64,000 nt of DNA from Paramecium tetraurelia (Eukaryota > Ciliophora > Oligohymenophorea > Peniculida > Parameciidae): positions 372,001 through 436,000 of the forward strand of contig NW_001799066.1 in assembly GCF_000165425.1 (NCBI RefSeq), given 5' to 3'. Positions 23,217 to 39,167 of the stretch are shown here, in pieces (the first letter of the stretch is position 1; every line of letters begins with the position of its first letter). The notes under the pieces are model-generated. The model saw only the letters and a program-made list of their open reading frames with translations, had not been told where the DNA came from and ran no database searches. Position numbers and translations under genes: made by a program.

Positions 23217-25527
23217 ATGAGAAGTAAATTGTATTTATTATACTTGAGTACTATGCCATACATCCTTACAAGCAAATCTCCTCATTTTGCATTGGATGTT
23301 TAATAGAACTATTAATCAGCACATGGGATGAACAATAATTCATATTTTCTCATTAATTTCCCTGATGCTTACATATTTGCAGGAAATGCTAGTGATCTAT
23401 AATGGTTGTAAATTTAGGAATTCAAGGTAAAACAAAATTAAACTAAAGCTGACGTTTTAATCTATAATGATTATTATGGTTATTATGTAGATAAAGCAAA
23501 TCAAGGTGGTCATTTGTTAATTTCTAAACAAAATCTGATTAGAGAATTTACATTTGGTAAAACGGATGCAGTTGATAAATACCTCAAACCTGGATTTATT
23601 TATATTATTGCTTGGTCCTCGCAAGGAGATGTTAGTATGATATTCAAAAGGTTTATCTAATTCATTACTTAATCAGAAGGCATTAATTATTGCGAATTAA
23701 AGACTATAACGAATTCTTTAGATTAAATAAAATGTAATTTGGATTTTAATTTCGATCAATTAACTTTCCATACTCCGGATCTCTATCATCCACCAGTGCA
23801 TTATTATTTAGGGAATCAGACCATCAATGGTTCTCTTACAAACCAATACTTTACAAAAAATTATCCAGGATTATAAGTTTTTGTTGCTTAGAATTTAAGC
23901 GATACATTAGAAATTAGATTACCTATAAAAAACATGGAAACTCATTAAAATGCTGTTGAATCTCCTCTAAGTGGGTTAATCATTACGATTTAATAAGAAA
24001 ACAGAGGATTTATACATATATTAATCTTTGAAAGCGATGAGGGAATCATTATCAACTATAAAGAAGATGAAAATTTGGCTTATGTCACTATAGGAAAGAC
24101 AGATTCAAAAGTGTTTGTGTTTTCATTTGTTACCTCTTCTTTTACAAAATTTCCTTAAATAGAATTAATATAGCATGTATTTCAAGATTGCGTTACGATA
24201 ATTTAATAGCGTAATAATATTTGCGAAAAACCAAATAAAGAATGTTAAAGTCTTTCATATGATTATTTTCATTAATTTGATTTTAATTTAAATTTTGATT
24301 AATAAGTAACATTTAAAATCAATGGAGAATCATTTTAAGCTCCTTACATAGAATTGTATGATGATTTAAGTACAATTTAAAATGAATTTACTAATTTTAT
24401 ATCATCAACAATAAACAATAGGGAAATGAATCATGGGGGATATATTGGGTCATTTTTGAGAATTACTAATAAAAATCAAAGCATTAATTCATTAATAATC
24501 AATGAACAGAATGAAAAATTAGAGGTGTATTATAATATTAATGATAACATATGTATGTAATTTTATGCTATTCATAGATTCCCATTCAGTTTAAAATATT
24601 ATTGGAAGAACGTATGTTTTAGTATTTGTATCATAAAACGAATTAACAGATATGGAATGTCTATAAATTTTTAGAGAATTCATTCACCATATTCAAAAAA
24701 TCTTCATAATTGAATAATGTAAGCAATGATAAAATAATGATAGTGGAGTAAAGATGTGAAAGTTAAATCAACAATTTTGATGTGAAACCCATTCAGTATA
24801 AAGATATTCACAAATTAGTAAAGTAACCAACTGAATTGCTTTAGAAAACTCACTAATAAGATTTTGATAAGTAAAATGATTTTGAATATTCAACCAATGA
24901 GGATCCAGACGAAGATTTAGAATATTTGGATGAAGATGAACAAATGTACGCTATGGATTATGAAAATTAAGCATAATTTATGCCTGATAATTAAGAATAA
25001 TTTATGCCCCAAAATTAAGATTAATTTATGCCTTAAAATTAAGCTTAATTTATGCCTCAAAACTAAGGATAATTTATGCCACAAAATTAAGGCTAATTTA
25101 TGCCTTAAGATTAAGGTTAATTTATTCCTTAAGATTAAGGATAATTTATGCCTCAAATGTAAGGCTAATTTATGCCACAAATGTAAGGCTAATTTAATCC
25201 TAATGAAGATCCCTCAATGGAAATGTCTTAAGAATAATTTATGGAATATCAAAGAATGTTGGACATGGAGTAATAATAGCAATTTTAATAATAGTATTAA
25301 TAAGAATAATAACAACAACAATCTAGAAAAGTTGAGGAAATTCATTTTAACAATCCTGGAAATTAAAAAAAATAATAATAATAAATCCATAAAGTTGAAT
25401 AAAAAGTTTAAAAAAAGTAATAAAACTAAAAAACTGTATAAAAAAAATAAAATGTAAAACCACCTGAAAAGGTTCAATAGAATTTAAGATAAAATAAATA
25501 AAAAAATTTGTAATAATAATAACAATA

Positions 25528-25566
<39 letters not shown>

Positions 25567-25978
25567 TTAAAACTAATTGCCTTCTCATAATGAAGATTCA
25601 AAATATTAGCAAACGTTTCATTAAAAAGAAGAGTATTAGGATAAAAATGATAGGTATAGAAGAAGAGATTATAGAGAAAGAGGAGATTACCCTGGAAGGA
25701 GAGATGAATATTATGGCAGAAGGGAAGATTACGGCAGAAGGGATGATTATGGCAGAAGAGATGATTATGGAAGATCAGATGATTATTATGGTAGAAGGGA
25801 TGACCATTATGGAAGAAGAGATGATTATTATGGGAATGATTATGATAGGGAAGATGGTAGAAGAGGGCCTGCATTGACTGGTTAAACCATAATGGTTCCT
25901 AAAAATCCAAGTGATTAAGAACTAGGCAGATTCTTTAGAGAAGTAATAGGAAGATTATAAAATAAAGGAAAAAATTGA
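23217..25978 (+). CDS. Repeat-rich protein with signal-peptide-like start, unknown function
   Basis: Introns at 24589-24622 (34 nt) and 24719-24743 (25 nt) leave 901 codons. The start MRSKLYLLYLSTMPYILTS resembles a signal peptide. Residues ~20-480 look globular with several Cys and many possible N-glycosylation sites. They are followed by an acidic segment, ten tandem octapeptides of type NQGQFMPQ, a Gln-rich stretch with a (TAA)n Gln run, and an Arg/Asp/Tyr repeat region of GRRDDYYG type. The tail is SDQELGRFFREVIGRLQNKG. No domain is recognised. Secreted front and RNA-binding-like back are odd together, so two genes may be joined by the introns near 24.6 kb, although the frame closes perfectly as one. 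Confidence 0.65.
24965..25204 (+). repeat. Ten tandem 24-bp units encoding octapeptides
   Basis: Units read NQ[AEDG]QFMPQ in order, with later copies varying to DQGQFIPQ and MQGQFMPQ. Each is exactly 24 nt, so copy number can change without breaking the frame. Confidence 0.9.
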
Positions 25979-26157
25979 AAATATAAAATAATATACATCT
26001 TCAAAATTTTTACCATATTCCAAATATTGAAACAGATTTTTTATTATTAAATATTGCTTAAGATTTTATTATTATAATAATAGGTTTATTTAAGTTATTT
26101 AATTTTATTTATAACTAATCACTGCAATGAATATTTTTATTTAATTTATTAATCCAA

Positions 26158-26538
26158 ATGCAAGCTTCATAAGAGAAAATACCAAATTTAGATCTCAGCA
26201 ATAGAAGATCACAATCAATGGTCACTTCAGATCCAGCCATTAAGAAACTTAAATAAACATTGTAGGTTGATAATGAAACTAGCACTCGTTAATTGAAACG
26301 AAAGTAAGGCGATATTTTGGATTCAATTCTTGAGGATGCGAATTTGATACTAAGAAATAAACTTTTGGAAAAGAATATTTATTAACTGAAGGAATTAGGA
26401 TTACTTAAATAACATGATCCTACTATAGCAGTTCAATAAGGATTTAAAAAAAGTAATTATGTGATGAATGATTATCATAATAAAAGTACTACAAATGGAT
26501 ATGCCAGAAATTATGGAGGATTGTTTTATAATAGATGA
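26158..26538 (+). CDS. Small basic protein of unknown function
   Basis: Intronless, 126 residues. The middle is helical (ILDSILEDANLILRNKLLEK); the end is Asn/Tyr/Gly-rich (GYARNYGGLFYNR). No recognised motif. It converges on the PiggyMac-like gene with 81 bp between stops. Confidence 0.6.
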
Positions 26539-26619
26539 TTTATCTTAATAAAATTTAATAAACAATTAAAATACTACTTCTAAATAATATTCATGTAAAA
26601 ATATGGCCATTCTTAATTA

Positions 26620-28827
26620 TCATTATTCTTAATCTTCTAGTTTGGGTTGCTTATTAAGATTTTCCATAAACTTCTCTAACGGACTAATTGTCTTAGCATT
26701 TAATTCTAACTATTTATTCTTCTACATTTGTTTTAGAATTTTTTTGTTTTTTTTCGTTTCTTCCATATCAAATAAGGTTTAATTATCAGATATTTATAAG
26801 CCTGACTGGCCATATCGATTTAGATGTTTAATTAATTATATTTTAAATTTCTTTTTTTACTCATCTAACCTATTTTCTATTTCATTCAAATCATTTCTAT
26901 GTCCAAGCATAGGTTATTGTTATACAAATTAATCTTTTGTTATTATCGGTTGGAGTAAATTAGGAGAAGGAATCATAGATTGATATTTCCTGGATAATTC
27001 TTAAAACTCATAATTTGAGAAATCCTCCAAATTAGACTATCTATAGATTTCCTTGTTATAGGATGAATAATTTCTAAGGTTCTATTTTTCTTATTTCTTC
27101 TTCTTTAATGCATATTCATCATCTTAAGAATGATAATGATTTTAAGAATTCAAGTCATTTGAAAAATACACGCCATCACTTAATTATTCTATTATTTTGT
27201 TATCACATTCAATAAATTAACTAGGATTGCGATGAAATAATTCAAAGCATGGAAATGCACAGATAAATATTTTATTTTCATTGAGTAGTTTTTCACATAG
27301 TCTACATCTATAAAAAGGTTTAGTTAATTAATTGAATTTCATACAAACAACACAATACTTAAATGATTCCTCTTATTTTTAAGGGATTGGAGTATGATAT
27401 GATTCAGAGTATTATTTGCTTAGGCCAAACTCTAATGGCAATGTATTGGTAGTACATTCTTAAAATGTTGAATTCATTTTTTTTTTTGCTTTCTATAAAT
27501 TACTTTCTATTTGTTGCGCTTTCTCAAAAGTAAAGATTTTAGCTAAACTCAATCTAAAGTTGGATTATAGCATGTCCTCAATCAACAATGAAGTATTATA
27601 GATCATAACTTCAAAGTATTCTTCAAACTCTATTCTTAATTAATTGAATCCTTCGACACTGTTTAATTAGGAACATAAGTAAAAATTGCTTCTATATTGT
27701 AATAAATTCATGATTGAGTGTTCGTAGTATTGTTATTAAACATCCTTATAGACTTTAAGAAAACTTTGATTTGAGATTGATTGTTTTTAGGGGAATAAAT
27801 GTACTTAGTATTGATTTTTGATTAAATATAATTATTCTATTTAATATTCACCTGGCAATAAGTTTTAAATTGTTTGATGTAATCTTTTTTCATAAGTAAT
27901 AACAGGGTAGATATCTTAATCAGTTAATTGTATGATTCTTTCCAAGCTCAATTCAAACATGACATATAATATATGATTGTGATTAGAGTATTTGAAGAGC
28001 ATTCTCATAAGTCGATTAATCCTATCCTCTTATTGAATCCTATCAGAAACTACTATCAAATCTATAATGATAAGTCGTGAGAAATCAAAGAGATAGTATG
28101 CTGTATATGCCTTATAAATTTACTCAATAAGAATCAATTCTTATTCTGGTTAGCAAATAGATTTAACTTGTTTCTGAAATTATAGTACTTCATTTAGCAA
28201 TTTAGATTTAGCATTTTAGTTAAGGTACATAAATAAATGAGTGTCTAGAAATTTAAATCTGCCAATGGGCATCATGTATTCAATCCCGCATCTAAGCCAA
28301 GGTTCTGCATTCCAATAATCGTCAATGTAAGGAAATCTAAAAATTCCAAATAATATTTAGAGTCCAAAATAAAGTTGGATCTCTGTTTCTTTATATTTCT
28401 TTTTATTGTATTAAGATGCAATTTTAGAAGGTTGTTACTTTAAGTCTTCTTCTAGAATTGAAAACAAATATTGATTAACTAAATCAGTTAAAGTGACAAT
28501 GAGAGAAGTTGGGAAGAAGTGATCATATACATTTTATGGTGTTTGGAGTTAGACAATTTTCTTAGCATGATATTATGAATAATCCAAAATGTCAGAGGAT
28601 GTTGGTATGATTGCTTCAATGATTTTGAAAGTTCTTTCCAGATTTATTTAAGAGTTATATTCTCTTTCATCATCAGAACGTGGTTAAGTACAATATTCTT
28701 CACAATCACTAAGAGTAACTTCTTATTTCCAAAGGCAATTATATTTCCTAACTTTTTCTGAGATTTGTTATGTTTGGGGCAAGGAAGTCACAACTGTAGT
28801 AGAATTGATTATCACTTCTTGTTTCAT
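26620..28827 (-). CDS. PiggyBac-derived domesticated transposase, PiggyMac-like, catalytically impaired
   Basis: Single 735-codon frame without introns. Residues ~148-215 carry the start of a piggyBac DDE domain (DDE_Tnp_1_7): EIQLYFGLQILFGIFRFPYI, DDYWN, then MPIGRFKFLDTHLFMYLNQN. At ~230 the block that normally reads LTIDEQ with the first catalytic Asp is ELILIEQIYKAY, so the Asp is Ile. Residues 492-532 are the piggyBac Cys-rich domain: CVVC, 12 residues on CRLC, then CAFPCFELFH. The C-terminal 200 residues are Q/K-rich and disordered. Known: Paramecium needs the active PiggyMac plus several Pgm-like partners lacking the full triad to excise germline sequences. This gene fits a partner. 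It has no flanking inverted repeats or TTAA signature that I could see, as expected of a host gene. Confidence 0.85.
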
Positions 28828-29011
28828 AGTAATTATTAAATTAGCAGGTCTGATATGGGATTAGATAATTATCTTGGAAATAAAGAGATTTTTATTGATA
28901 TCCTTTTATTTTTTTAGAAATTGTAATTATATGCATATGTCTATATTTGCTTATTTAATATAGAGACAATATGAAAAGTTTAAATTAAATAATTTCTTAA
29001 TTTCTCTCTTA

Positions 29012-30783
29012 ATGCAACGCGAAAATTATAATGATAATAAAAGTAGAAGCAGAAGTCGCAGTAAGTCTAGCAAAAGGAACAATTAACATAACCAACCCTA
29101 AAATTAGAAATCTCAAAAAGAAGGAAATTGTTACTAAAATGATAATAAAGAATATATATCTCACAATTCTAGTCCAATTAGATTATAAGAAGAACATCAT
29201 ATTAGCGATGAACATACTAAGTAAATATTGTGATAATGCAGAGAAAGCAAAGAAGAATATAAGATCTTAGATTAGAATTAAAAGATCAATCTAGCGCCTA
29301 ATAATTAATTTTAAATACAGTGTGAAAATTTAGATTTGGGCAATAGACATTATACAACGATTCCTCTACCTTAGAAGGATCTTAATAGTAACATAAAGGA
29401 GTCCCTTGATAAATAGGTATATGAAATGATCACGATAAATGACAGTAGCCAAGAAGACAACCGAGATGCTGGCAGTATTGGAGATAAGACAGGGCATCAT
29501 CATGATATCGATTAAGTTGAGAATTCTAAAATGGATTCAACAAGAAATGGCCAACTAGGATAAAAAATACCAAAAATTTAGAAAACAAAAATAAAAAGAG
29601 AATCGTAATAACAAACTAAATAAACAAAATAATCTTTTGATTGTATAGATTTAACTAAGGATGATACTATCTTATCCTTTTTTGGACTTAATCATCCAAT
29701 GTTATAAAGTTCTTTGGAATACAATAAAAATGAATTATTCGAATTAGTGGAGCCTTATGAATATTAATGTGGAAATTTCATGATTAGTTTAGGAATACAA
29801 GGCCATTATACTGCTATTGTCACTCTGCCTAGTCTATCCTAAAAGAAGGCTGTTTATTATTTATTTATGAAGTTCCAATTTGATCAAAAAAACGTTTATT
29901 GCATGATCCCTGAAGATGACTAAACAATATTACTGGTTAATTCTAATATTTAAACACTTTATTATTACTGTAACTCAAATACTCAATAAAAGGGAAACCA
30001 TAAAACAACCTTCTAAGAAAGCATCCTGAAATACAAATTTCCATATATCTTTCCAACTCTAATCCGAAAATTTGTAGTTTCTTATTAAAAAAATGATTAA
30101 TAGATTCGATATCAAATCAATTATGATTCGCATGCTATTCAACTGGCAATTGAAGATTATTATTAGGATATTCCTGGGCATTTAATAACAGGTACTAGTC
30201 ATCCTATATTGAAAATTCTTTTTATTAAAACGCAAAATAATTAGATTCCTTAATTTTACTACAAGTTTTTAAGTGTTCCACTCTATGAAGGACAATTCAG
30301 TTTGAAGGCTTCACTTCTACAAAATTCCAATTTAATTGTTGTAGAGAGAAGGTTAATTACTAAATAAATTTTTAGGTTCTTAAGTCCCTTCTGTTATGGC
30401 ATCCATTCAATCAAAATCGAAGTCAATCGAATTACAAATGTTATTATAATGAAATAATCTGGAAAAGATTAAGAAATTCAATCAAAAAATATTCAATAAT
30501 TTTGGGATGAAGTCCATTAAAAATATCTTTAATTATATCCTTCGTATAATTTTAATTTATCTTTAGGAAATTGTTATATAATTACTTTGTAGAACTCATA
30601 AACTAGGATAGAAAAGTGTTAGAAAAGTATAAGAAATGGAATCAATTAAATGAGTACTTGAGTAAATCTCAGTAATTCAAACCTAATAAGTAGAATGAGA
30701 AGCCCATTATCCTCAATAATAAGGAATTCTTTTGTTTTTCTATAGAGGACATAAAAAATGGAAACAGAATTAAATATTAATGA
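29012..30783 (+). CDS. Unknown protein with RS-like start and SUMO-interaction-like motif
   Basis: Introns at 29221-29241 and 30589-30611 leave 576 codons. The N-terminus is Arg/Ser-rich (NKSRSRSRSKSSKRNN), followed by ~180 disordered residues, then FDCIDLTKDDTILSFFGL, where IDLT plus acidic residues fits a SUMO-interacting motif (inference). From there about 350 residues look folded (ISLGIQGHYTAIVTLPSL, HAIQLAIEDYYQDIPGHL). The family is not recognised. It is divergent from the PiggyMac-like gene, 184 bp between starts. The stop overlaps the next ORF in ATGA, so the true protein may be longer. Confidence 0.6.
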
Positions 30784-34551: not shown

Positions 34552-37500
34552 TCACATATTATCAAAATCGTTGAAACTCTGTATCATTGCTCCTTAATTA
34601 ATATACTATCCAACGTCATCTACAACTTATTAAATTAGTTATGTTTGCTATGGTTGACCTTGTGCCTAAGAAGTTTAAGTTTATTATTATGGATCTTTTG
34701 GCTTAGCAGGCTTTCTTTTAGTAGCCCTGTAATCTTCAACAATTTTCTTTCCTTTCTCCAATTTAGTTTCTGAGGTTTCATTTATGAAATCGCCTTCATT
34801 TTATTCTTGTTGATCTTTCTCATACAATCTTATATACATATTATTTAATAATGGTATTAGAGAATCCTATTTAAATAGCTCAATAGTCCTTCTATAAGAT
34901 TCAGATTTCAATATTATGTCTCTAATTAAAATTTTATCATCAATCCTTTTACATTCGTCTAGCAATCCGATACAGGCCTAAAATAATCGAATATCGTAAG
35001 TTTTATGCAGTTTTTCAAAAAGTTAATAGATATCCTTGAATTTTTGCATTTTTAACAAAATTTTGATAATTAATTTGATTATTTTAGACTTTTAATAATT
35101 AAAGATGAGGTCTTATGAATAATAGTGACTGAGTACTTCATCTTTTTCACACTTGTATTTATCAATTTATAAGTAATAATACACAAGATCTCTACTGTTT
35201 GGTTGATAAATAGAAGATATTTATGCAAAAACTTAATCTATAGGGGCTTAACTGTTAAATTTTAAATGTGTTGCATAATAGAATGATTCAATAACATACC
35301 TTTAAGCCTTTTTCCTTACCAATTTTTGTGTATTCTCTATGAATATAGTTAAAAGGTTATTCAAAATTAAATTAACTTCTTATGTATTGTATTCAGTGTT
35401 CTCCTCTTATTCAAGTTGTTCTTAAGTAAAATTAGATATTTTGAATTTCCTATTGTCATATTAAAATTAAAATTATAGATCACTCTGATTTTAATTTAAT
35501 AAATAAGAATACTTTTCTTTGATTATTTAAACTAATTGATTTAATTGGTTGTAAAGTCTGTGCCTTAGAAACCTTCTGATAAATTTATAAATATTTATAT
35601 AAAGATCCTACTTCATTTCTTGTTCACCGTCATTGGATTGATAAAAATATTCAATTTCATATTCTTTCATTTACTTGATTAAATCAACAAGACTGCAAAT
35701 ATTATCTAAATTTTAACTAATTCTTTCAATTGGAATATTCCTATATTTTCTCATTACTTTTTTTTCATAAAGTTGTAAAACCCTGAAGTTGTTCTCTATT
35801 TCAAAAGCATCTTTTGGCAAATTGAATTATTTCTGATAAAGTGCCTAATATCCTTATTCTGTCTTTTTATACAACTATTCATTACTTGAATGTTAATATT
35901 CAACCTACCTTTGCATTAATTTGATAAGGTCCATAATATATCTATATTCATTTAAGTGATTTAATTGAGGATTCTTATTCACCAGTGCCTAAATCTTTTT
36001 CTAACTTAAAAACCAATCAATTTCAGTTTAATTCTTCTGCTTAAATTACTTTTGGGCTTATTCAAAAGTACCTTAATACAAATAATTCCATAAAAATGGT
36101 GATTCTTTATAAGCTAAAGCATAACAAATATTTTTAAAATCAATCTTTTGTTGACTTTCATTAAAATTCAGTTCTTCTGATTTTTGAATTTGATAATATA
36201 AGTTTGATTTGTAATCACACTACAAATTGTTCTGATGAATACATTCTTGAAATTCTTTAATTGATTAAACTTTTTATTTCTGCTTAGTAAATATTGATGA
36301 ATATAACCATTCAGCAAATTCCTAAATTTTAGTATCATTAAATTTTTGCAGAGACTTCTTAATGACATCAAGAATAAATTGATTTAATTATCTCTAATCT
36401 TAAAATAGCTTTGAAAAATGAGTTAAGAAATAACCCATGAACTGAAGCTCAATCTCAGATAAGTCTCTTGTAAATTCTTACAATAGATAATAACTTTTTA
36501 AGAATATGTACTAAAAGTTTTTGCTTAATTCTTTAGTACTTAATCCGAATTCAACTCTAATTTTCTCTTTAGCAAATCTCTTTATATGTTCAATAATTTT
36601 TGGATCTCCCATATTAATTTTGATAGTATGATTTTATAAGAATTCAACTGATTTAGTGGGGAACTAATAATTATACTTTCCTATCTTAAAGGCATTTTCT
36701 GTTTGTTCTTTTGTTAATTATAGATTTTAGTATGATTTCTAGAATATGTCATCCGATTCTACTTCATCCTCAGAAGCACTTGAAAATGATTCTGGCTAAG
36801 GGTATTTACTTTCAAATTTTTCAATTTCAATTTGCAACTCATTTTATTGGACCATAAATTAAGGTGTGTATTGGTCTTTTAAATCTAACAAATGAATCAA
36901 ATAATAACGAAGCTCTAAATCATTTTAAACACTGTTTTTATATTAATCTATTAATTGATTATATCTATCTTTCATTTATATTTTTGCTTTAATGAACTCT
37001 TGAAGGATGAGATCTATGTTTACATATGTGAAAAGCTTGTTTATATTTAGATGATGAAATCTTAGAATTTCCATCAAAATTAGATGCTTATTATAGCCAT
37101 TTGTTTGAGTTAAGAATATTTCAATAAATTTAGCCAAAAACTCACTTGAATCATATTCCATTAAAGAATAAATTATGGAAAATTTCAAGAATATAAAGCC
37201 AATTAAAAGATCAGGTTAATTGATATTCAAAAATTACTAAATTAATGGTTATACAAATCTATAAATTACTTTAAGTTCTTCCTTTTATTGTACAAAATAA
37301 AATTAATTAAGACAAATTATAGCTAACCTTTTGACTAAATCATAACTTTAATTCTATTATAGATAGTCTTACACATAATTGATTTAAGTTCTAATTTTCT
37401 CATTATCTTCTAATCTCTATTCTTTTTATTCCCATTAAGTAAGAATTTATTAAATTTATTAGGATTAATGTGGTGAGTTAGAAGAAATTTAAAATTATGC

Positions 37501-39167
37501 AGATTTTATCTTATCTCTAATTTCTTAAGTTATTTCTGGGTTATTTAATTCTAATACACACAATTTTGCTATTCTTCCTTAAAAAAAATTGATATCACTA
37601 TGTATCTAGGCCATGACTCTGTAATATTTTGATAAATATGATTAGATTTCTGCTTGATCATTTATTACTTAAGCGATATTTGTTTACAAAAGTTCTAATT
37701 TCATATTATTAATAAAAGTAATAAAATTTTTAATTTTGTTTTGTTGTTCTGGAGATTTTGGTTTCTTTTCTTTAAATCTCAAAGTTAATTCTTCATATGC
37801 AACTTCCAATAATCTCAATTTAATTTTAGGATTATCAGTAAATTTGTTCGTTGAGTATTAAGCCCAAACAATACAATTTATTAAACCTCTTAGAGCTTCG
37901 TGGTATGAAGAACTATTAGAATTTTTACTTTAGGGACTTTTTTATTGTTCACTTACCATATCCTATTATTAGGGAGGATTCTCATACAATTAATAGTCTT
38001 AACAAATTAATGTTATTAGACTTTGTAATAATTCAATTATTGTCAAGAACTATTTTTTGTTTAATTGTTCCAATAGAAATTTAGCTACAGGACACTCTTA
38101 CTTTTCATTTTATTCACTTGAAATTTTATTGTTATTATTATTAAGTTAGAATATTTCATTTCCATCAAATTACTTCATTAATTCTATTAATTTATTGTGA
38201 TTAGATTGAATAATTTAATCTAATACGAATTATTAATCTTATTGCTGCTTAGATTTTTTTGACTTCTATCTTTCGGATTATTTAACTGGCTGACTTTCCT
38301 TTGGCAACTCCTTTGAAACATCTTTGGAATTTTATTGTTGATCTTTGGAAATCACTATTATTTTAGTATTAGACATAAAGCATTTCTCATTCTAAATAAA
38401 ATCAAACTTTTTTGGTTCAAAATTGACATTTATTTATAAAATATTCTATATTTTTTTAAAGAATTTCTTTAAATCATAAGTATCTAATTTAATTTCAAAT
38501 TAGAATGTTTAATTAAAATATTCTAACTTCTAATTTGATTCAAAGGGAATCTTTTCTAATTGTTATTGAATTTAAGATTGTTCTTTCAAAAGCTCATTAA
38601 CAAAATCAGTAATATTATTTTTATCAATAAAGTATTTGTTCAATTCTGCAATTTTGTGCTTGAGATTATTATTATCAGCCATTTTATCAAAATATATTTG
38701 GAATTATTTTTAATCATCCATTAAAAAACAAATAGAACAGACTTGATAGAGTATGGCCTAGATGAGATTAGGTGAATTGCATAATTGTAGTCTATATAAA
38801 TCTAATTGAATTAATACGCTTTCAATATAACATTTAAGGCTCTAGGCATCATTCCTAATTGCCTAAATATTAAAGCCATTTTTCTTTGGGTTTGCCAGCA
38901 ATTATCTGAAATTAATGTACTTTGGTAATAATAATATAAAGCTTCGCATTTATTCTCTACACAATCACTTTAGGCTTGAATTTCAGCTAATGACATGTAG
39001 ATTCCATATAAAATCTTTTTATCATCTTGATTAATAATGGATTGATTCTGCATTAAATCCTTCAAAATTTGTATCCCTTTTGCTTCATTCCCATTTTCAA
39101 GCAGGTCAATAGCCTATTAGTATTACTAAAATAATTCGGACTCTAGCTTCTCTTGGTTTTGACTCAT
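34552..39167 (-). CDS. Very large TPR-containing protein, unknown function
   Basis: Almost intronless: 4616 nt, one base short of 1539 codons. The N-terminus is TPR-like (ENGNEAKGIQILKDLMQ, ALYYYYQSTLISDNCW, MALIFRQLG then NDAQSLKCYIESVLIQL). The two halves of that repeat are in different frames, and one extra base in the TT at 38852-38853 (+ strand) rejoins them perfectly. A Lys/Gln-rich linker precedes a long all-helical body (VNKNPQLNHLNEYRYIMDL, KESPFLWNYLYQGTFEQA), and the C-terminus is basic and disordered. Length and N-terminal TPRs resemble CABIN1/Hir3 of the HIRA complex, but I see no decisive motif. It converges on the upstream coiled-coil gene with 7 bp between stops. Confidence 0.7.

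Follow-up and report, generated by a model that had tools for sequence, protein, structure and literature searches.

The gene at positions 26620..28827 of the window (the whole 64,000-nt stretch of Paramecium tetraurelia DNA, to which all coordinates below refer) is most likely PGML3c as described by Bischerour et al. (2018, PMC6143343). Its product is, with a probability of about 0.7, a domesticated piggyBac protein with a dead catalytic triad that serves as a minor, partly redundant architectural subunit of the Pgm/PgmL excision complex. The gene, the core fold, the loss of at least two triad aspartates, the paralog identity and continued constraint were all supported in the present analysis. 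Counting against this explanation are the null result of PGML3c knockdown, the lowest expression of its group and a faster protein change than in PgmL3a/b. A preliminary description of the sequence had proposed a piggyBac protein of the Pgm/PgmL kind that is domesticated and no longer catalytic; the domains, the triad loss and the PgmL3 identity agree with this. It had left open which partner this was, or whether it was a new one, and the analysis settles this as the published PGML3c.

The finding is already known and falls inside a published system, since architectural PgmLs lacking the triad are reported in the available text of PMC6143343. In the open-access literature, outside of which most subscription journals lie, PGML3c was found by name only in that paper, and no later study was recognized from titles and the start of abstracts. 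What the present analysis adds is a rate of protein change about 1.6-2.2 times that of PgmL3a/b, combined with an equally invariant Cys/His-rich domain (CRD).

Gene structure and domain organization

The following features were recognized in the window:

26620..28827, reverse strand: coding sequence of PGML3c, a single open frame of 735 aa and a stop in the ciliate code (table 6)
28153..28545, reverse strand: N-lobe of DDE_Tnp_1_7 (Pfam PF13843), residues 95-225, domain edges rounded
27463..28152, reverse strand: RNase-H-like core without an intact DDD triad, residues 226-455
28120..28137, reverse strand: LILIEQ, residues 231-236, I234 opposite the first Asp of piggyBat
27193..27405, reverse strand: CRD with predicted zinc ligands, residues 475-545
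26623..27192, reverse strand: C-terminal extension (residues 546-735); a conserved SPLEKFME block lies close to its end
26158..26538, forward strand: convergent neighbor of PGML3c, a 126-aa frame whose paralogs adjoin PgmL3 at loci C2 and C211

Read with table 6, the coding frame runs from an ATG start to a TGA stop and contains 52 reassigned TAA/TAG codons. The protein aligned end to end with three predicted orthologous proteins, that of P. sonneborni showing an 8-residue gap. Its architecture, with a C-terminal extension of 190 residues and no N-terminal extension, matches the PgmL3 group. A simple heptad score gave no clear signal of a coiled coil in the extension. Elsewhere in the window, a 475-aa frame (24551-25978, forward strand) encodes tandem QFMPQNQ-like repeats, poly-Q and RRDDYGR-type repeats, and its product is possibly RNA-binding.

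Identity among the PgmL loci

Nine loci of the genome could be assigned to the nine published PgmLs: C14 (PgmL1), C164 (PgmL2), C2, C211 and C108 (PgmL3), C160 and C175 (PgmL4), and C179 and C186 (PgmL5). Locus C14 encodes 578 aa, the published minimum PgmL length (PMC6143343), and was assigned to PgmL1. C160 allows a reading of 1085 aa, which together with the 578 aa of C14 gives the published length range; in this reading it has D619 and D785, the residue numbers published for PgmL4 (PMC6143343). The fit was partly chosen, as it depends on a 22-nt intron, one among six candidates, and on a start placed 40 codons into the open frame. C175, a relative matching C160 at 84%, was assigned to the other PgmL4. 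The assignment of C179 and C186 to PgmL5 followed from architecture and CRD position, and that of C164 to PgmL2 from elimination and CRD position. PgmL1, 2, 4 and 5 were thus rejected as identities of the window gene, each being assigned to another locus.

The window protein combines a DDE_Tnp_1_7 domain, a CRD with Pgm-type zinc ligands and an incomplete DDD triad, the features by which PgmLs are recognized. C2 and C211 were 90% identical to each other over their shared length and 52-53% identical to the window protein. The tree and the identities placed the window protein with three others in a PgmL3c clade, with four a/b sequences at 49-53% identity to it. The window gene therefore lies outside the recent whole-genome-duplication pair a/b, the position that distinguishes copy c. 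Only residues up to 616 of the C211 paralog, where its frame breaks, entered the analysis; a good match continues in another frame from near residue 617 (C211:473079), which may reflect an assembly error or a real shift.

The flanking genes common to C2 and C211 were 86-92% identical. The convergent 126-aa neighbor of PGML3c was 75% and 74% identical to its counterparts at these loci (blastp with 26131-26535, the open stretch around that frame). Upstream of the C2 copy lies a gene that matched window positions 34555-38964 (reverse strand) at 55% over 420 residues, although this match is not immediately adjacent to PGML3c; the neighbor comparison covered only about 6 kb around each paralog. These common neighbors point to a paralogon, formed by a segmental (whole-genome) duplication that predates the C2/C211 pair, as published for PGML3c. 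The identification as PGML3c rests on this shared paralogon and on the gene being a third PgmL3, about 52% identical to the recent-duplication pair. The published description (PMC6143343) has the same features: a third PgmL3 outside the recent pair, aligned sites that lack the triad Asp, a C-terminal but no N-terminal extension, and relatives in other aurelia species. No difference between it and the window gene was found in the available text. A new, unpublished PgmL group was rejected, as identity, neighbors and architecture all match PgmL3c.

piggyBac domains and fold

The piggyBac N-lobe signature, on which the preliminary description had relied, was recovered when residues 91-400 were searched as a 310-aa piece: PF13843 (DDE_Tnp_1_7) matched with E 8.6e-13 and 48.7 bits against a cut-off of 22.4, over profile positions 1-133. 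The domain was also matched at the PGML3c locus in a six-frame genome search (E 5.9e-10) and in the full-length P. octaurelia protein, 91% identical to PgmL3c, at 51 bits. Hmmscan of full-length PgmL3c did not report it even at E 1. This miss is probably a filter effect, because both the piece and the full-length P. octaurelia protein match. The absence of a DDE_Tnp_1_7 match, named in the preliminary description as grounds for refutation, therefore does not apply. Misses of this sort may leave other ciliate proteins with a biased composition under-annotated.

In full-length PgmL3c, zf-Tnp_2 stayed below threshold (hmmscan, E 0.0069, 17.4 bits against 24). The CAFPCFELFH block noticed earlier starts at residue 523, and all eight predicted zinc ligands of the CRD (H478, C492, C495, C508, C511, C523, C527 and H532) are present and invariant in 8 of 8 PgmL3 sequences.

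The best Foldseek match of the core model was piggyBac 6x67 with an E value of 2.5e-07, but with a TM score of 0.32 and an rmsd of 21.1. The mean pLDDT of this model was 52.7, and it can be relied on only within part of the RNase-H region. In VIA-align, the Tn5 and HIV integrase cores scored as highly as piggyBac against it; therefore, the model speaks for membership of the DDE/RNase-H class rather more than for the family. AlphaFold prediction of the full-length protein from 7 sequences gave a poor model (mean pLDDT 33.7), which was kept out of all fold searches. piggyBac 6x67 and piggyBat 9c0f share the N-lobe and the RNase-H-like fold with PgmL3c. Both piggyBac and piggyBat are DDD enzymes of mobile elements.

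Loss of catalytic triad residues

The reading LILIEQ in place of LTIDEQ was located at residues 231-236. A profile of 7 PgmL3 sequences aligned I234 opposite D243 of the piggyBat chain 9c0f_C (E 0.0045). A wider profile including PgmL1, PgmL2 and PgmL5 (E 1.1e-06), which reaches the fourth strand, placed M290, in a Met/Leu column, opposite D315 of the same chain. We take D243 and D315 to be catalytic residues, consistent with the motif positions. Residue 234 is Ile in all four PgmL3c and Val in all four PgmL3a/b sequences, and residue 290 is Met or Leu across the 8 PgmL3 sequences. The loss of the first catalytic aspartate, as originally claimed, is borne out by I234, but the claim understated the loss, as the second site is affected too. 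At least two of the three triad aspartates are thus gone.

The third position could not be placed by aligning PgmL3 profiles with piggyBat; in the models, it is expected downstream of a long helix starting at 353-354. Within residues 226-455, the only Asp columns common to all 8 PgmL3 sequences are 248, 256, 268 and 303, none of which falls at the two aligned sites or near the expected third site. The third aspartate is probably absent as well, judging from the lack of a suitable conserved Asp, the site itself being unaligned. E392, invariant in 8 of 8 PgmL3 sequences, is a candidate equivalent of the third catalytic residue and no more. PgmL3c hence does not carry the complete DDD triad of an active piggyBac transposase, and the available text of PMC6143343 likewise gives PgmL3 as having no conserved triad Asp. 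Pgm shares with PgmL3c the piggyBac core and a CRD of the His-Cys2-His and Cys4 kind, but it keeps D401, D491 and D609 and is the catalytic subunit (PMC8086355).

Conservation and rate of change

The window protein was 91, 85 and 73% identical to its orthologs from P. octaurelia, P. primaurelia and P. sonneborni, respectively; these are predicted proteins and were compared at the protein level. On the same columns, PgmL3c changes about 1.6-2.2 times faster than PgmL3a/b. The comparison used the 545 columns at which all of seven specified sequences have a residue, so that the start and most of the C-terminal extension lie outside it, and the a/b sequences entered it without an ortholog assignment within their clade. 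Sequence P0006 has a late start and a divergent end. Between P. tetraurelia and P. sonneborni, 143 differences were counted for 3c versus 86 or 87 for a/b. With two different partner species, 74 differences separated P. tetraurelia from P. primaurelia (3c) versus 34 from P. pentaurelia (a/b). The discordant columns favored a faster 3c, with p between 1e-5 and 1e-4.

The change was uneven along the protein. Invariant CRD columns numbered 59 of 71 both in PgmL3c and in a/b, whereas 48 (3c) versus 73 (a/b) of the 94 N-terminal columns were invariant. Identity to the C2 paralog was 73% in the CRD, 40% in the C-terminal extension and 39% in the N-terminal 94 residues. dS was saturated between PgmL3c and its own paralogs. 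Over the 616 aa that precede the frame break in C211, the C2/C211 pair gave a dN of 0.048, a dS of 1.24 and a ratio of 0.039. For piggyBac orthologs of P. tetraurelia and P. octaurelia as a set, a dN/dS of 0.02-0.11 has been reported (PMC9942806). From the ortholog identities, the relative rates, the region-wise invariance and the dN/dS of the recent pair, PGML3c seems to remain under constraint, though less so than its paralogs and not evenly along the protein.

Possible role in the excision complex

In the published model, Pgm cuts, and PgmLs, which lack a complete triad, hold and position it (PMC6143343). Every PgmL tested binds Pgm, the PgmL3 group having been tested through PgmL3a, and all PGMLs are induced in autogamy (PMC6143343). 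Double knockdown of PGML3a and b leaves no sexual progeny, and the pair is required for efficient and accurate excision; when PgmL1 or PgmL3a+b is lost, partial internal excision errors arise that are displaced by roughly one helical turn (PMC6143343). PGML3c, the least expressed of its group, gave no post-autogamous phenotype when knocked down alone or with 3a or 3b, and the authors could not confirm an important function for it (PMC6143343). Neither a test of PgmL3c binding to Pgm nor a triple PGML3a+b+c knockdown was found in the available published text.

PgmL3c most likely joins the Pgm/PgmL complex, which removes internal eliminated sequences (IESs) while the macronucleus develops. As a minor and partly redundant member, it would occupy the slot of PgmL3a and PgmL3b. 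Its transposase core may pack against other subunits such that Pgm is positioned on the TA ends, and its zinc finger may touch the histone H3 tail. The preliminary description had considered the CRD a DNA-binding domain. This does not hold for purified P. tetraurelia PgmL CRDs, including that of PgmL3a, which bound no DNA and interacted with the H3(1-19) tail, unlike the CRD of piggyBac, which binds DNA (PMC8086355). The structural subunit proposed earlier is supported for the PgmL3 group but not for the PgmL3c copy, because PGML3c knockdown was negative and that of 3a+b left no sexual progeny. The RNAi and expression check that had been suggested is in part already in print: PGML3c knockdown was negative, although all PGMLs are induced in autogamy (PMC6143343).

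PgmL3a and PgmL3b (C2 and C211, which is which being unassigned) have the same architecture as PgmL3c, C211 up to residue 616, together with the similar CRD, M or L at the second site and E392; the first site is V. They differ in their 48-53% identity to PgmL3c, their slower change and the loss of sexual progeny on double knockdown (PMC6143343). PgmL3c could alternatively have become a specialised subunit after the older genome duplication, acting on a subset of IESs, at another stage or in a modulating role missed by bulk survival tests. Consistent with this, full-length proteins are predicted in four species, the CRD is as invariant as in a/b despite the faster change, and at 110 columns the four 3c sequences show a fixed difference from the a/b sequences (three or four of them), 36 of these columns lying in the C-terminal extension. 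The Ku80 paralogs provide a precedent for duplicate specialisation in the excision machinery (PMC7161955). However, relaxed constraint predicts faster change equally well, and the published knockdowns showed no phenotype (PMC6143343), so that we consider specialisation unlikely. Similarly doubtful is a distinct subunit of an alternative excision complex, with a constant CRD and rewired N- and C-terminal contacts, serving an IES subset or tuning assembly; its effect would be visible only at particular IESs or with PgmL3a/b limiting. That PgmL3c is a redundant duplicate heading to loss, retained by chance or dosage only, would fit its low expression, the null knockdowns (PMC6143343) and its faster change. 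This appears quite improbable given an undisrupted frame in the window copy, eight retained zinc ligands, the ortholog identities at a time when the recent pair has already reached a dS of 1.24, and the low dN/dS range of the piggyBac ortholog set (PMC9942806).

An active or recently active piggyBac element is scarcely credible. The transposase fold and CRD would be expected of one, and an imperfect inverted repeat of 25 nt, 72% complementary, brackets the gene (arms 25921-25945 and 29809-29833). It is one of 24 inverted repeats recognized in 25300-30000, none of them perfect; it had no chance control, and its arms sit inside the frames of neighboring genes. The genome yielded only three PgmL3 loci, as a lower bound; they are diverged and share a paralogon, and at least two of the three triad aspartates are missing, which on the alignments used rules out an active transposon as far as catalysis is concerned. 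What remains of narrow interest is that PGML3c has come through the time after an old duplication intact and conserved, although no role for it emerged from the published knockdowns (PMC6143343). Its faster, uneven change together with an equally invariant zinc domain makes redundancy versus specialisation testable.

Other proteins with a PgmL-type CRD

The catalytic Pgm locus was not recognized in the P. tetraurelia assembly with PF13843, PF13842, PgmL3c, PgmL4, PgmL2 and a small CRD protein (C64) as queries, owing to an assembly gap or a search miss. The searches also revealed a family of small proteins with a PgmL-type CRD, about 360-380 aa where complete (C64:106515-107666, C229:148572-149676 and C10:139715-140776), with shorter matches at C211:105948-106115 and C2:176792-176920. 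They lie outside the nine loci assigned to the published PgmLs, which had themselves been identified by searching with DDE_Tnp_1_7 alone (PMC6143343). zf-Tnp_2 was above the cut-off at C10 and C229, and the genome search gave no DDE_Tnp_1_7 match for the family. In the profile comparison with PgmL3 only the CRD was matched, and no homology to PgmLs outside it was found by pairwise score. Relatives occur in P. octaurelia, P. sonneborni and P. primaurelia, and two members, one each from P. tetraurelia and P. octaurelia, are named as piggyBac-derived in UniRef. These small CRD proteins are candidates for extra components of the excision machinery.
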